A stretch of DNA of 55,812 nt. Origin: Synechococcus sp. AG-670-A05 (GTDB taxonomy: Bacteria; Cyanobacteriota; Cyanobacteriia; PCC-6307; Cyanobiaceae). The stretch is from the NCBI GenBank assembly GCA_003211535.1, contig QCSJ01000005.1, positions 1-55,812 of the forward strand, written 5' to 3'. Every line of letters starts with the position of its first letter. Position 1 is the stretch's first letter. The notes under the pieces are model-generated. The model made no database searches. It saw only the letters and a program-made list of their open reading frames with translations, and was not told the DNA's origin. Below are positions 1-7,636 of this stretch, piece after piece. A program made the translations under genes and the position numbers.

Positions 1-11
1 GTAGGCAGTCA

Positions 12-779
12 ATGCCTTTCGTCAGTAATTCAGTCACAATGAGCCTGACGCATCACATCAAGACTTCTGGAGTTATGAATCCTCCCGTCAATGAACCAAT
101 CACTCCTATCAAGGTGAGTGAGCGTTGGTTCCCGAAAGGACGGGGATTCTGTCTGTATGAGTGTGGTGGACGTGTCGCTCCGAACGTCACCTCGATTCTC
201 TCTTGGAAATTTCCGTTCGATAAGGCGAAGTGGAAAAAGTAAGAACCCGACATCGACCATGATGCCGTCACCAGAGAATCTGCCAAGCGTGGAAAGGCAG
301 TCCACTTGGCGATGGAGAAGTGGTTGCAGAATAAAGACCACACTCCCGTAGAAGAGCATTCGCAGTGGATCATCCCGCTACAAAGCCTTGTTTCACGAGC
401 TTCGAAAACACTGGCTGTTGAAGTTCCTCTGCTTTATTCGATCAATGGTGTTGGCGCGTATGCCGGGAGCTGTGATGGGGTAATGCTTGTTAGTGATGAT
501 GTTGTCCTTATCGACTACAAGGCCAAGCGTTATGGGAAAAACGTATTCCCTAGGTTCTGTGAGCAACAACGTCTGCAGCTAGCTGCCTACTCACTTGCGA
601 TCAATCATCTCTACGAAGATCAGCTTCCTTCCCCAGTAACAAAAACAAGTTTATTATTTGCCTACCCTGAGGGTGGCAAGCCCGTCACTGTTGTATCTAC
701 ACAGGGCAACTTGCTTCTTGAGTATCAACAGAAATGGCTTGATCTGCTTGTTGAGTGGTACGAAGTGCATGGCGAATAA
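12..779 (+). pseudogene. PD-(D/E)XK (RecB-like, cyanophage-type) exonuclease interrupted by an in-frame TAA at 240-242
   Basis: ORFs 12-242 and 306-779 are in the same frame. Reading through TAA gives ...APNVTSILSWKFPFDKAKWKK*EPDIDHDAVTRESAKRGKAVHLAMEKWL...GSCDGVMLVSDDVVLIDYKAKR..., with a nuclease-like D...DYKxK core. Confidence 0.6.
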
Positions 780-1010
780 GTAACTAATGAGCAAATTATT
801 TTTGACAAGCAACTTAATTTGTCTTTTTGATGGGCACCTGAGATGTCCAGCGATGAATGATCAAATACCTGTAAGTTTTGTTCGTTTTTGTTTGCCTATA
901 TTTTTATCGGCAAGGTCAAACTGCCATGTTCCGTAGTGCAGCCTACGATTATCTTACTCATCCTAACCATCAATGATGGTCTCAGTCATTTGTCAAGAAG
1001 TTGGGTTTGT

Positions 1011-1757
1011 TCAGCCTGCGATCTCATTTTGGTGTTCAAGTCTGCTGGCAAAGCGTCCGATTAAAACGCCCATTACCGCCGCCAGGTAGCGCGGTCCGGT
1101 GATGCTGGTGACCACACTTATCACTCTCGACAGCGTGAGCAACGGATTGATGTCGCCGAAGCCGACTTTGTTGAGGAAGACGAAGGCGTGATAGTTGATC
1201 GCGGAGAAGGCAAGAGCTGCTGCCAGCATGCTGTTGACTCCGGTTTGGGTAACGCTCAGCGGCTCGAAGTTGCCGGGTTGGATGGTTCCCGAAGCACATA
1301 TCATCAGTCCGGCACTGAGGCCGATGTGTAGATAGCCGGCGGTCGCCCCCATCAGCAGTGATTTGGTGACCATGTGCTCTTCGGCGAAGCGTTTGACCAG
1401 TCGGATCACGCTCAAGCCCACCAAGAGACTCCTACTGAGCGCCAGAGGCACCCCGATGTAGGTCAGCTCCAGTGGTGTGAGCAGCCAAAGCCACATCGTC
1501 AGCTACGCAAACAGCCCCAGGCCGCGATTGGAGCAATCACTCCATTGGGGCGACTGGCTGTCGTGCACCATCACCTGGATTAGCAGCAGAGCGATCAGGC
1601 TTTAGTCAAGATGGGTGGCCAAGATCACTCTGGGAAAGGCGAATCCCACCAGCACCAAGAATATGAACAGCAGCAGCAGCCGCAGGTGCAATCCTTTCTG
1701 TCGTCGCGCCATCGCCCTGAGATCGTCCTTGTCGGCGTGGTTTGGCGGCCGAGCCAT
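1011..1757 (-). pseudogene. Ion-channel-like (two-TM/pore type) membrane protein with two in-frame stops
   Basis: The frame from ATG (1755-1757) reads MARPPNHADKDDLRAMARRQKGLHLRLLLLFIFLVLVGFAFPRVILATHLD*SLIALLLIQVMVHDSQSPQWSDCSNRGLGLFA*LTMWLWLLTPLELTYIG... and continues as ORF 1011-1496. Stops: TAA at 1602-1604 and TAG at 1503-1505 (minus strand). Pore-like motif NYHAFVFLNKVGFGDINP. Confidence 0.6.
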
Positions 1758-2383
1758 CAGAACAAGCTGAGCTGAGAGCTGCCGCCGCGGCTCCAGCCGT
1801 CACTCGGCCATGGTTCCAGTATCGGCTCGAGGGCCCGGCGGTGGGCCCCATCCCCCGGGTCGAGCCAGATCTCCTCGAGCCCTCGGGGAATGACCACCGG
1901 CATGCGGTCGTGCAGGCTCTCCAGCAAAGCGTTTGGTTTGGTAGTTATCACGCAGCAGGTTTCCAGGTCGCTCCCGTCAGGGCCGATCCAGCGATCCCAG
2001 AGCCCGGCAAGCCAGAACAGCTGCTGGTCTTGCCGCTGAATCTGCTCCCCTTGCTCCAGGAACCCATCCGCAGGCAGCAGGCAGCGCTGGTGACGCCAGG
2101 GACCACGGAAGGAGGCTTTCTCCTCCAACGTCTCGGCGCGGGCATTGATCGGCCGCGGTCCGGTTAGTGGATCCTTGACCCAAGCCGGCAGTAGGCCCCA
2201 GAGCATGTGGCTGGTCACACTCAGGCCATGTTCGCGCCTGAGGGCCAGCACCGGTTCTCCTGGCCGGATTAGCCGGCGTGGTGCGTAGTGGTTCAACCAG
2301 CCGGTATCAACGTCCCGTAACCAGGGTTGGAGCAGGGCCTCAAGCGCCTGCAACGACTTGTCGAGGCTGTAGCGACCGCACAT
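1757..2383 (-). CDS. SOS response-associated peptidase (SRAP / YedK / HMCES family)
   Basis: N-terminal MCGRYSL (catalytic Cys2), INARAET and CLLPADGFLE motifs. Confidence 0.93.
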   Translation of the reverse strand: MCGRYSLDKSLQALEALLQPWLRDVDTGWLNHYAPRRLIRPGEPVLALRREHGLSVTSHMLWGLLPAWVKDPLTGPRPINARAETLEEKASFRGPWRHQRCLLPADGFLEQGEQIQRQDQQLFWLAGLWDRWIGPDGSDLETCCVITTKPNALLESLHDRMPVVIPRGLEEIWLDPGDGAHRRALEPILEPWPSDGWSRGGSSQLSLF

Positions 2384-2469
2384 GGACGTGACGTTAGAAG
2401 GCGTTCGGTTCTCCCACCCGTATGCAACGGTTCATCCCTCGTAGCGTGGCCTGATCTCGGGCAGGTGCC

Positions 2470-4344
2470 ATGCCGATTCGACAGGACGACAACCGACCGA
2501 ACCGTCGCTTCGGGATCATCAACCTGGTGTTGATCGGCTTTGGGGTGCTGCTTTTGTTGAGCAGCTTCGTCCCGAGCAACGCGATGCAGCAGGTGCCAAA
2601 GGTGCCCTATTCGTTGTTCCTTGATCAGGTGAACGATGGCGCTGTGAAACGGGCCTACATAACCCAGGAACAGATCCGCTACGAGCTCAGCAACCCGGAA
2701 GAGGGCACGCCACCGGTGCTTGCTACAACACCTATCTTCGACATGGATCTGCCCCAACGCCTCGAGACCAAGGGCGTTGAGTTCGCAGCTGCCCCGCCGA
2801 AGAAGCCCAACATCTTCACCACCATCCTCAGCTGGGTGGTTCCGCCGCTAATTTTTATTTTGGTGCTTCAATTCTTCGCCCGCCGTTCGATGGGAGGTGG
2901 AGCGCAGGGAGCTTTGAGCTTTACCAAGAGCAAGGCAAAGGTTTACGTGCCGGATGAGGAATCCCGCGTCACCTTCGCTGATGTGGCCGGTGTTGATGAG
3001 GCCAAGCAGGAACTCACCGAGATCGTCGATTTCCTCAAAACCCCTGAGCGCTATGCCGAAATCGGTGCGCGCATCCCCAAAGGTGTCCTGCTAGTCGGCC
3101 CTCCGGGCACCGGTAAGACCCTCCTCTCGAAAGCTGTCGCAGGCGAGGCCGGAGTTCCCTTCTTCATCATCTCTGGCTCGGAATTTGTTGAGTTGTTCGT
3201 CGGTGCCGGTGCGGCCCGGGTCCGGGACCTGTTCGAGGAAGCCAAGAAAAAAGCCCCCTGCATCATTTTCATCGATGAGCTTGATGCCATCGGCAAGAGC
3301 CGTTCCGGCTCCATGGGAGTAGTTGGTGGCAACGACGAGCGAGAACAGACCCTCAATCAGCTACTCACGGAGATGGATGGCTTCACAGCCCAGGACAAGC
3401 CGGTGATCGTGTTGGCGGCCACCAACCAGCCTGAGGTGTTGGATGCCGCGCTGCTGCGCCCGGGTCGTTTCGACCGTCAGGTGTTGGTGGATCGCCCGGA
3501 TCTTTCCGGTCGCAAGACCATTCTCGAGATCTACGCTAAAAAAGTGAAGCTCGCTGTTGCTGTGGATCTTGACAGCGTTGCTCAGGCAACTAGCGGCTTC
3601 GCCGGTGCCGATTTGGCCAACCTGGTGAACGAAGCGGCCTTGCTCGCCGCCCGAGCCCATCGCACCCAGGTGGAGCAACAGGATCTTGGTGAAGCCATCG
3701 AACGGGTTGTGGCGGGCCTTGAGAAGAAGAGCCGCGTCTTACAGAAAGATGAGAAGAAAGTGGTGGCTTATCACGAAGTGGGACATGCGATCGTCGGCCA
3801 CCTGATGCCAGGAGGCAGCAAGGTGGCCAAGATCTCGATCGTGCCCCGGGGCATGAGCGCCCTTGGCTACACCCTGCAGCTGCCCACTGAGGAACGCTTC
3901 CTCAACTCCAAGGAGGAACTGCAGGGTCAGATCGCTACGTTGCTTGGGGGGCGTTCGGCCGAGGAGATCGTTTTCGGAAAGATCACCACCGGTGCTGCTA
4001 ATGACCTGCAGCGGGCCACCGACCTGGCGGAGCAAATGGTGGGCACCTACGGCATGAGCGATACCCTCGGACCGCTGGCCTACGACAAGCAGGGGGGCGG
4101 GCGCTTCCTCGGCGGCGGCAACAACCCACGCCGTTCCGTAAGTGATGTTACGGCCCAGGCCATCGACAAGGAAGTGCGCGGCCTGGTTGACAAGGCCCAC
4201 GACGACGCTTTGGCGATTCTGCGCCAAAACATGGCTCTGTTGGAGACCATCGCCCAGAAGATCCTTGAGAAGGAAGTAATAGAAGGCGACGACCTCAAGC
4301 AAATGCTTGAGGCCAGCGTCCTACCCGAGACCGTCAGTGCTTGA
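2470..4344 (+). CDS. ftsH: ATP-dependent zinc metalloprotease FtsH
   Basis: N-terminal TM, AAA Walker [12 protein letters not shown] region, zinc site HEVGH. Confidence 0.98.
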
Positions 4345-4389
4345 CGCCAACCACTCCCATCCCCGATAACAGTCCTTTGAATCGTCACG

Positions 4390-5346
4390 ATGGCTACCGC
4401 CGCTGCGGGTGTTGCTGCCGCTCTTTCCCCCCTCAGCGGCTGTGACTATCTGTCCTCCACCGATTGCTCAGCGACAGAAACATCCGCTCTACTGGAACTA
4501 GCGGGGCAACTGAAGCATGGTGATCGCCGCATTGATCTCGGCAACCGTGTTCTCGGGCTGATCTTCACCAAAGCCTCCACCCGGACTCGCGTGAGCTTTC
4601 AAGTGGCCATGGCCCGACTGGGTGGCCAGACGGTGGACCTAAATCCCCAGGTGACGCAGTTAGGCCGCGGCGAGCCCCTGGAGGACACCGCACGGGTTCT
4701 CAGTCGCTACTGCGACGTGCTGGCCGTTCGCACCTTCGCCCAGCAGGAGCTGATGGACTACGCCCACTGGGCCTCGGTGCCTGTGATCAATGCCCTCACT
4801 GATCTGGAACACCCCTGTCAGGCCCTGGCCGATTTTCTAACAATGCAGGAGGCCCATGGTGATCTGCCCGGCCAGACCCTGGCCTATGTGGGCGATGGCA
4901 ACAACGTTGCCCATTCGCTGATGCTCTGCGGGGCTCTGCTGGGGGTGAACGTGCGCATCGGTTGCCCGGAGGGTTTCGAACCCCTGCCTGGGGTGCTGGA
5001 GCAGGCCCGATCTTTGGCGCAGCATGGTGCTTCCATCGATGTGGTGACCGATCCTCGTGAGGCCGTTCAGGGTGCTCAGGCGGTATACACCGACGTATGG
5101 GCCTCCATGGGCCAGGAAGCAGAACAGGTCCAGCGGGAGCAGGCCTTCGCTGGGTTCTGCGTCGACGAGGCTTTGATACGTCAAGCGTCCTCGAACGCTA
5201 TCGTTCTGCATTGTTTGCCTGCTCATCGCGGCGAGGAAATCAGCCCCGGGGTGATGGAAGGTTCCGCCAGCCGCATCTTTGATCAGGCTGAAAATCGTCT
5301 ACATGCTCAGCAAGCATTGCTCGCAGCAGTAATGGGTGGTCTTTGA
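4390..5346 (+). CDS. argF: Ornithine carbamoyltransferase
   Basis: STRTRVSF, HPCQALADFLT and HCLPAHRGEE motifs. Confidence 0.97.
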   Translation: MATAAAGVAAALSPLSGCDYLSSTDCSATETSALLELAGQLKHGDRRIDLGNRVLGLIFTKASTRTRVSFQVAMARLGGQTVDLNPQVTQLGRGEPLEDTARVLSRYCDVLAVRTFAQQELMDYAHWASVPVINALTDLEHPCQALADFLTMQEAHGDLPGQTLAYVGDGNNVAHSLMLCGALLGVNVRIGCPEGFEPLPGVLEQARSLAQHGASIDVVTDPREAVQGAQAVYTDVWASMGQEAEQVQREQAFAGFCVDEALIRQASSNAIVLHCLPAHRGEEISPGVMEGSASRIFDQAENRLHAQQALLAAVMGGL

Positions 5347-5496
5347 ACCTCTCGTTGATTTTAATGTTGATGAAAGACATCTGCGATTATGTTGATCGTT
5401 GCCATCAGGGGGACTTTCGTTCTTGTCTAAGTACGGCTAGCTCTTGCTTTGCTATTGACAACAAGTCGCAATGTTCATTGCTGCAGCAAGATAATT

Positions 5497-5706
5497 CTAA
5501 AGATGGATGTAAACCTTTCGCCCATTCTTGTTGATGCGATAGCGACCACCCTTCGGTCCAATATAGACTTTCAAATCATCGTTCAATGCTCTGCTTTGAG
5601 GACGATGGGTTGGCTGAGATTTTTGGGGTATCCGCCCAGGGCATGATGCTCTAACTAAATCAAGCTGAGCAGACAGTTTTTCAAGTAGTGTTTGCATTTG
5701 AAACAA
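5497..5706 (-). CDS. Small basic protein with PBCV-type basic adaptor-like C-terminus
   Basis: 69 aa; C-terminal VYIGPKGGRYRINKNGRKVYIHL resembles the GPKGGRYYIN(K/N)GRKVY repeat. Confidence 0.55.
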   Translation of the reverse strand: MFQMQTLLEKLSAQLDLVRASCPGRIPQKSQPTHRPQSRALNDDLKVYIGPKGGRYRINKNGRKVYIHL

Positions 5707-6061
5707 ATACGCTTTGTTCGCTAATTATATCCAGCAGGCAATCCGTGTTTCTACTCATCGACAACGACCTTTTAGGGTCGAGATAGTCTTGATTGGATGA
5801 ATTTAAGTCTGATTTGCGCTTGATCCAATGGTGATTTTTGGATTTAAATCTGCTTTTGGTTTCGGGAGAGCGATTTAAGTGCTTTATTTTTCTGCCTCTA
5901 ACTCGTTCCCTCCACATTTTGAATGACGATGATTTCATATTTTTTCTCATTAAAGAGATCACGTCCTGTTCACTTAGATTGAACTGGTAAGCAATCGCCT
6001 CAAAGCTTGTAGGGTCTTCCCAGGCCATTTCAATGATCCTATCAAGATCTTCTGATTCCAT
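5681..6061 (-). CDS. TIGR03643/DUF2805-like family protein with an extended basic C-terminus
   Basis: LDRIIEMAWEDPTSFEAIAYQFNLSEQDVISLMRKNMKSSSFKMWRERVRGRKIKH matches the family core. Confidence 0.75.
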   Translation of the reverse strand: MESEDLDRIIEMAWEDPTSFEAIAYQFNLSEQDVISLMRKNMKSSSFKMWRERVRGRKIKHLNRSPETKSRFKSKNHHWIKRKSDLNSSNQDYLDPKRSLSMSRNTDCLLDIISEQSVFVSNANTT

Positions 6062-6136
6062 GGCTGATCGAATTGTAAGGTTGAAGCAATTAATGGACTA
6101 TAGGATTATATTGAGACTTTTTTTTAGAGTGGGAAG

Positions 6137-6451
6137 GTGCCAGTCGATTCGGGCGAGTCTCTCTCGATTTCCTTCATGGATGTGAAGGAAGCGTTTCCGT
6201 ACATCGATCCTGAACGGCTGATTCCTAGCGATGTGCTTGACATCCTTCTCCGTGAGTTTCACCAGATCCAGGGCTTTGTGGACTTCGGCCATGAAGCCAA
6301 TAATCGCGAAACCGCCTGGGTGAATGGTTATCTTTACAGGCAAAAGACAATGGTCTGGAAAGCTTTGACGTCGAGAACATTGGCTCAAGTGTCGACAAGA
6401 CGGCCGCATTGCGTTAACAGCACCAACGCTGATCAACGTCAGGGTGGATGA
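6137..6451 (+). CDS. Hypothetical protein (uncertain)
   Basis: 104 aa ORF with plausible composition in the first ~70 aa; overlaps the out-of-homology tail of the ribD ORF on the other strand. Confidence 0.3.
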   Translation: MPVDSGESLSISFMDVKEAFPYIDPERLIPSDVLDILLREFHQIQGFVDFGHEANNRETAWVNGYLYRQKTMVWKALTSRTLAQVSTRRPHCVNSTNADQRQGG

Positions 6452-6534
6452 CATTTTGTCCATCCAGTTTTGAGCATGGTCTGCCAGGCCTCGATGGCGT
6501 TGTGCCGCAGCATCAGTCGCCTGGCGATCAGGGC
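6439..6534 (-). pseudogene. C-terminal fragment resembling a DUF1651-type picocyanobacterial protein
   Basis: Alternate minus frame reads ...ALIARRLMLRHNAIEAWQTMLKTGWTKCHPP*, resembling the RRxxLRRxEAxxxWxxLxxxGWxxxxP end of DUF1651 proteins; no start visible. Confidence 0.4.
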
Positions 6535-6535
6535 T

Positions 6536-7151
6536 GGTGAGCAGGGGGTCATCGGCGCAAACGGTTCCACCGCCGACGATCACCGCATCGCATCCCGCCC
6601 GCAACTTATGCACCCAATTGCGGGCGGGTGAGCCGCTGATCCATTGGCTGGCGCCATTGGTCAACGCTGTTCTGCCATCGAGCCCCATGGCCCATTTCAG
6701 GATTCCGAAGGGGTGGCCGGTGCGAACGCGATGCAGAAAAGCCCGGTTCTGCTCCGCAGCCTTCTGCCGCAGCACACCGGTGATCACCTCAATGCCGGCC
6801 TGCCGCAGTTGAGCAATCCCACCACCGGCCACACGGGGATCCGGATCCTCGAGTGCCACCACCACCCGGGCAATACCGGCCCGCAGCACCGCTTCACTGC
6901 AGGGGGGGGGTGAGGCCGTGATGGCAGCAGGGTTCAAGGGTGACAACAAGGGTTCCACCAAGGGCCGCATCACCCGCCTGGGCTAAGGCCCGTACCTCGG
7001 CATGGGGCTCGCCGGCGCAGGCATGGAAACCCTCGCCCACCAGTAGGCCCTCCCGGCTCAGGACCACAGCCCCCACCAGGGGATTGGGACTGGTGCGTCC
7101 TTCAGCCAGCACAGCAAGCGCCAAGGCCCGGCGCATCCAGAGGTCCCACAT
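6536..7151 (-). pseudogene. ribD: ribD fragment (diaminohydroxyphosphoribosylaminopyrimidine deaminase/reductase): frameshifted and 3'-truncated
   Basis: MWDLWMRRALALAVLAEGRTSPNPLVGAVVL...PHAEVRALA...LEPCCHHGLTPP, then a frameshift at G9 (6902-6910), resuming as PPCSEAVLRAGIARVVVALEDPDPRVAGGGI...KWAMGLDGRTA...WVHKLRAGCDAVIVGGGTVCADDPLLTS. RibD similarity ends there. Confidence 0.85.
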
Positions 7152-7636
7152 CAGCTCAGGGGCAGGTCCTGCAGCGAGCGCCACTCACCAACCACGTAGG
7201 GAGGCACAGGCAGCTCGGTGAACACCCCCGGCAGCACCAGACGCAGTGGACGGTTGTTGCTGAGATCGTCCAGGAGGGGATCGAGGGCAAATTCCGCAGC
7301 AGCCTCGCGGCCGTCGGTGGCCAAGGCCGGATTGGCCAGGGTGATGTCGTCCAGAGCCCAGTTTCTGCGACCGGCCTCCACTTGAAGGGTCACTGGATGG
7401 TCCATGCGGAGTTTCCCGGGATAACCAACAATGCGAAGCACCACAGGCTCTCCGGGCTCCCCCTCGCGGTACGCCACTGCCTGCCAGCTGTCATAATCCA
7501 GATCGCGGAGGCTCTCAAGGCTGCGAACCATCCGCGTGCCGTTTTCGGATTCGTGCTCGTGTACCTGGGCCAATCCCTGGGGAGCCGTAATGAACAGCAC
7601 AAGGATGGCGATCAGACAGCAGAGTAATCGGCGCAT
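7151..7636 (-). CDS. DUF3122 family protein (secreted/lumenal)
   Basis: Signal peptide MRRLLCCLIAILVLFITAPQGLA; ORF track starts upstream at 8140 but ATG at 7636 fits. Stop overlaps the ribD ATG (ATGA). Confidence 0.7.
   Translation of the reverse strand: MRRLLCCLIAILVLFITAPQGLAQVHEHESENGTRMVRSLESLRDLDYDSWQAVAYREGEPGEPVVLRIVGYPGKLRMDHPVTLQVEAGRRNWALDDITLANPALATDGREAAAEFALDPLLDDLSNNRPLRLVLPGVFTELPVPPYVVGEWRSLQDLPLS

Follow-up and report, generated by a model that had tools for sequence, protein, structure and literature searches.

A probable chimeric inverted join accounts for the interrupted ribD gene in a contig of a marine Synechococcus-like assembly

The broken appearance of ribD in this contig is due to a backward join with nearby DNA. 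The window, by which we mean the whole stretch analysed (55812 bp), is contig C5 of assembly G000, which comprises 2.0 Mb in 142 contigs, is 83.35% complete and has marine Synechococcus as its nearest named relatives. We estimate at about 0.8 the probability that the contig is chimeric at 6532-6539, through an artefact of amplification or assembly and not through real gene loss; in the living cell ribD is most likely intact. A preliminary description of this DNA as carrying a ribD "broken twice" is therefore true of the contig and most likely untrue of the cell.

The features of the region are listed below. The names argF, ftsH and SRAP are presumptive.

1011-1796, minus strand: Ion_trans_2 channel pseudogene of the flipped block, with two in-frame stops and raised dN
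1757-2383, minus strand: putative SRAP-like gene, flipped block
2470-4344, plus strand: presumed ftsH, flipped block; in relatives it has the same direction as ribD
4390-5346, plus strand: presumed argF-like carbamoyltransferase gene, flipped block
5681-6061, minus strand: DUF2805 gene, flipped block
6137-6451, plus strand: homologue of an unnamed 98-aa gene that adjoins DUF1651 in G020 and G024, flipped block
6430-6539, minus strand: remnant of a DUF1651 gene (PF07864 in G020), namely its C-terminal end, truncated at the junction
6532-6539, no strand: inverted junction, with up to 8 bp (GGCTGGTG) common to the ribD side and the flipped side
6540-7184, minus strand: 5' part of ribD (deaminase domain plus the initial ~45 residues of the reductase), with its frame broken at 6902-6910
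6902-6910, no strand: G9 homopolymer, one base above the frame of relatives and the longest G/C run in the window
7151-7636, minus strand: DUF3122 gene, which normally adjoins ribD; unflipped side

The ribD remnant starts at 7184 or 7151 on the minus strand. Its deaminase segment (7184-6903) and the segment that follows (6949 to ~6540) match RibD in different frames, in agreement with the earlier claim of a frame break at the nine Gs. Relative to G020 as well as to G024, the tract has precisely one base too many, so that one G fewer fits the frame, as had also been proposed. Pfam recognizes in the remnant a partial deaminase and positions 1-88 of the 197 of RibD_C. Base-level homology to RibD ends earlier than the Pfam match, at 6532-6539, close to position 6536 where the similarity had been said to stop. 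In a functional bifunctional RibD, a single frame would hold the deaminase and the reductase domain in full, which the window does not offer; its ribD carries two inactivating lesions of the kind that define a pseudogene, the G9 and the truncation. The RibD open frame is 364 to 375 aa long in well-assembled genomes of the same genus, and a full-length RibD is kept in every well-assembled relative. Most of the reductase domain is indeed missing from the contig, but the reported loss is not a simple one, as the domain has been replaced by reverse-oriented chromosomal DNA.

The origin of that DNA was established by comparing the ribD region with those of G020, G024, G013, G002, further Synechococcus stretches and one Prochlorococcus single-cell genome. 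The order in relatives is DUF3122-ribD-ion channel-SRAP-ftsH-argF-lexA, with ftsH and ribD in the same direction. This order is kept in all Synechococcus stretches that are long enough and in the Prochlorococcus genome, though neither an SRAP nor a channel gene was detected in the latter. The window instead has ftsH and ribD in opposite directions, and DUF1651, which neighbours lexA in relatives, is joined to mid-ribD. Positions 6532-55812 are collinear with G024 1377381-1430228, bar one 3.5 kb insertion in G024, whereas positions 1036-6539 map inverted just beyond the 3' end of ribD in G020 and G024, as do positions 1036-5346 in G013 and G002. Base by base, agreement with G020 and G024 extends to 6539 on the flipped side and begins at 6532 on the ribD side, which leaves at the join a microhomology of 5 to 8 bp, its length varying with the reference. 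Two coding genes, ribD and DUF1651, are cut by the join, which connects points that lie 5.8 kb apart in G020 and at a similar distance in G024 (5.5-5.8 kb in relatives). Chance is excluded as a cause of the ribD break because the break coincides with this sharp inverted junction. Synteny thus bears out one option of the preliminary description, a wrong assembly with a junction near 6536.

The inverted join is absent from all relatives checked, a set that holds no second genome of the same species. When ~40 contigs or contig parts of G000 were compared with 880 kb of G024, the ~250 kb that aligned contained no further short-range inverted join, a point against a chimera. Comparison of the contig for self-overlap gave nothing useful, and a junction 30-mer had no match among viral contigs, a result that is uninformative on the origin of the junction. 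The junction region had no match in Rfam. We weighed the possibility that the junction contains a repeat or mobile element, as positions 6460-6524 are multicopy in each genome and positions 6420-6540 fold as a long hairpin. This candidate was rejected because the hairpin is not conserved in G020 and G024 and the multicopy matches are C-termini of DUF1651 paralogues. The conserved DUF1651 C-terminus, MLRHNAIEAWxTMLKTGW, appears as a dispersed repeat in many places in G002, G004 and G006, and this family of small proteins is expanded in some marine Synechococcus.

The 3' end of ribD, lexA and ~12 kb beyond are absent from the G000 assembly. The C-terminal half of RibD found no tblastn match in G000, and only short weak matches were obtained there for the DNA from the channel gene to the ribD 3' end (including an adjoining 105-aa gene), for lexA and for G020 1350000-1358000, which includes the conserved flank 1350000-1356000. 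This missing DNA forms a large assembly hole at the left end of C5, so a single chimeric molecule could dominate there. We regard amplification as a likelier source than an assembly step, on the inferred premise that the DNA was amplified or poorly covered. During whole-genome amplification, the 3' end of a strand copied through ribD would end in ...CACCAGCC and could anneal, on a displaced strand, to the short match that the DUF1651 gene offers 5.5-5.8 kb away in relatives. Extension of the annealed strand in the opposite direction would then produce the inverted join, while the genuine 3' end of ribD and the side with lexA would have dropped out of an incomplete assembly. With its 142 contigs, 83% completeness, low contamination and a 16S gene, G000 is compatible with a single-cell genome, which these features do not prove. 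The single 16S gene lies at C6:10816-12500; right after it, at C6 12500, synteny with the part of G024 used for comparison ends, as if rRNA operons had collapsed and the flanks of two operons had been joined.

It is unlikely, though the least unlikely of the alternatives, that a real and very recent microhomology-mediated inversion disrupted ribD, its 3' end being lost or displaced to an unassembled place and riboflavin coming from outside or from a copy located in the 17% of the genome that is missing. The two lesions in one gene are what a real pseudogene would show; they speak for such an inversion and against a chimera, and the assembly is only 83% complete. The other end of the block carries the channel pseudogene beside an accessory PD-(D/E)XK-like gene, and a real rearrangement may thus be nearby. 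However, ribD is conserved in every well-assembled relative, the other parts of the riboflavin pathway that were searched for, RibH (lumazine synthase) and RibBA (DHBP synthase), are intact in G000, and photosynthetic autotrophs normally need this pathway. In its strongest form, in which a free-living marine Synechococcus cell truly lost RibD by a fresh inversion and needs outside riboflavin or an unseen replacement enzyme, the proposal is very improbable.

Selection on the two damaged genes also differs. The dN/dS of the ribD remnant is 0.10-0.20 against G020, G024 and G013, compared with 0.15-0.17 for intact ribD pairs; relaxed selection was not seen, although it would not be expected in a very recent pseudogene either. 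The channel gene has a dN/dS of 0.19-0.22 against G020 and G024 versus 0.08 between these two, its selectivity-filter stretch is altered, and it seems to be a truly decaying pseudogene. As the ribD fragment is undecayed while the channel gene has decayed, the two breaks differ in age, and the ribD break is either much younger than the channel decay or not real. The last codons of the channel gene diverge in all relatives, and a second sharp junction may lie at 1036. Positions 1-840 (plus strand) hold a PD-(D/E)XK nuclease-like gene that adjoins the channel pseudogene and whose frame is interrupted by a stop near 242; it occurs in only 5 of the 33 relatives and lies ~144 kb from ribD in G002. 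Relatives would lead one to expect a different neighbour at positions 1-1035, and this far end of the block may hold a real rearrangement too, which counts against the chimeric reading.

The preliminary description had further proposed that the fragment is the relic of a duplicated or replaced copy, which would require an intact ribD in the unassembled part. The missing 17% leaves room for one, and G012 has two full copies, though it is listed at 5% contamination. The normal purifying selection on the fragment, with a dN/dS like that of functional ribD, runs counter to this proposal, as do its ancestral position beside DUF3122 and the lack of a second fragment in G000; we hold a relic to be very improbable. 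The two full-length loci of G012, at C54:39067 and C15:6955, probably reflect mixed strains. The companion proposal of an intact or split ribD elsewhere fared no better, for the G000 assembly contains no other full ribD and yielded only a stand-alone RibD_C protein on C51. Together with the deaminase fragment this protein might replace RibD, its domain being intact and its gene adjoining one that resembles 6-pyruvoyl-tetrahydropterin synthase. Yet the deaminase frame is itself broken by the G9, and a second RibD_C match, weaker than the first and about as strong as that of the C51 protein, is present in most relatives that have a full-length RibD. The C51 protein is thus not a compensation, and such a split is, by a little, the least credible of the readings.

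The G9 tract lies 370 bp from the inverted join and is the sole indel common to the G020 and G024 comparisons that breaks a conserved coding frame in the 55.8-kb contig. Under a chimeric origin it is most likely a slip error, as we infer, in poorly supported sequence, and its location inside the chimeric gene could be coincidence or the effect of shared low coverage. As that location speaks most strongly for a real pseudogene, our confidence in a chimera is not higher. Elsewhere in G000, conserved genes show frame-breaking indels against G024 at C20:994-1168 and C47:4843-5425 (several); the two genes presumably encode a pilus-motor-like ATPase and a phycobilisome-linker-like protein. Indel errors in this assembly are plausible in view of these cases, where real mutations are also possible.

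An automatic pipeline would score G000 as lacking ribD and lexA. Calls of vitamin auxotrophy from fragmented, possibly single-cell genomes can thus stem from a chimeric join; a genuine break would make an abundant oceanic photoautotroph dependent on riboflavin.

The ribD of the window resembles RibD of marine Synechococcus in its deaminase domain, the start of its reductase domain, its position after DUF3122 and a residue identity of 81-89%. It differs in one frame break and in the absence of the 3' 40% from the contig and the whole assembly. Among chimeras formed by multiple displacement amplification (MDA), 85% are inverted (Lasken and Stockwell 2007, PMC1855051); 337 of the 406 inverted joins connected segments less than 10 kb apart, with complementary bases at 93.5% of these (PMC1855051). 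Overlap lengths in MDA chimeras peak at 6 nt and lie for the most part within 5-8 nt (PMC4595205). The join in the window has both hallmarks, inverted segments from within 10 kb and a short complementary overlap: like inverted chimeras made by phi29, it links points natively less than 10 kb apart, through 5-8 bp and inside coding genes. Unlike them, it stands in a consensus contig and not in single reads, from DNA whose presumed phi29 amplification is undocumented in the data given.
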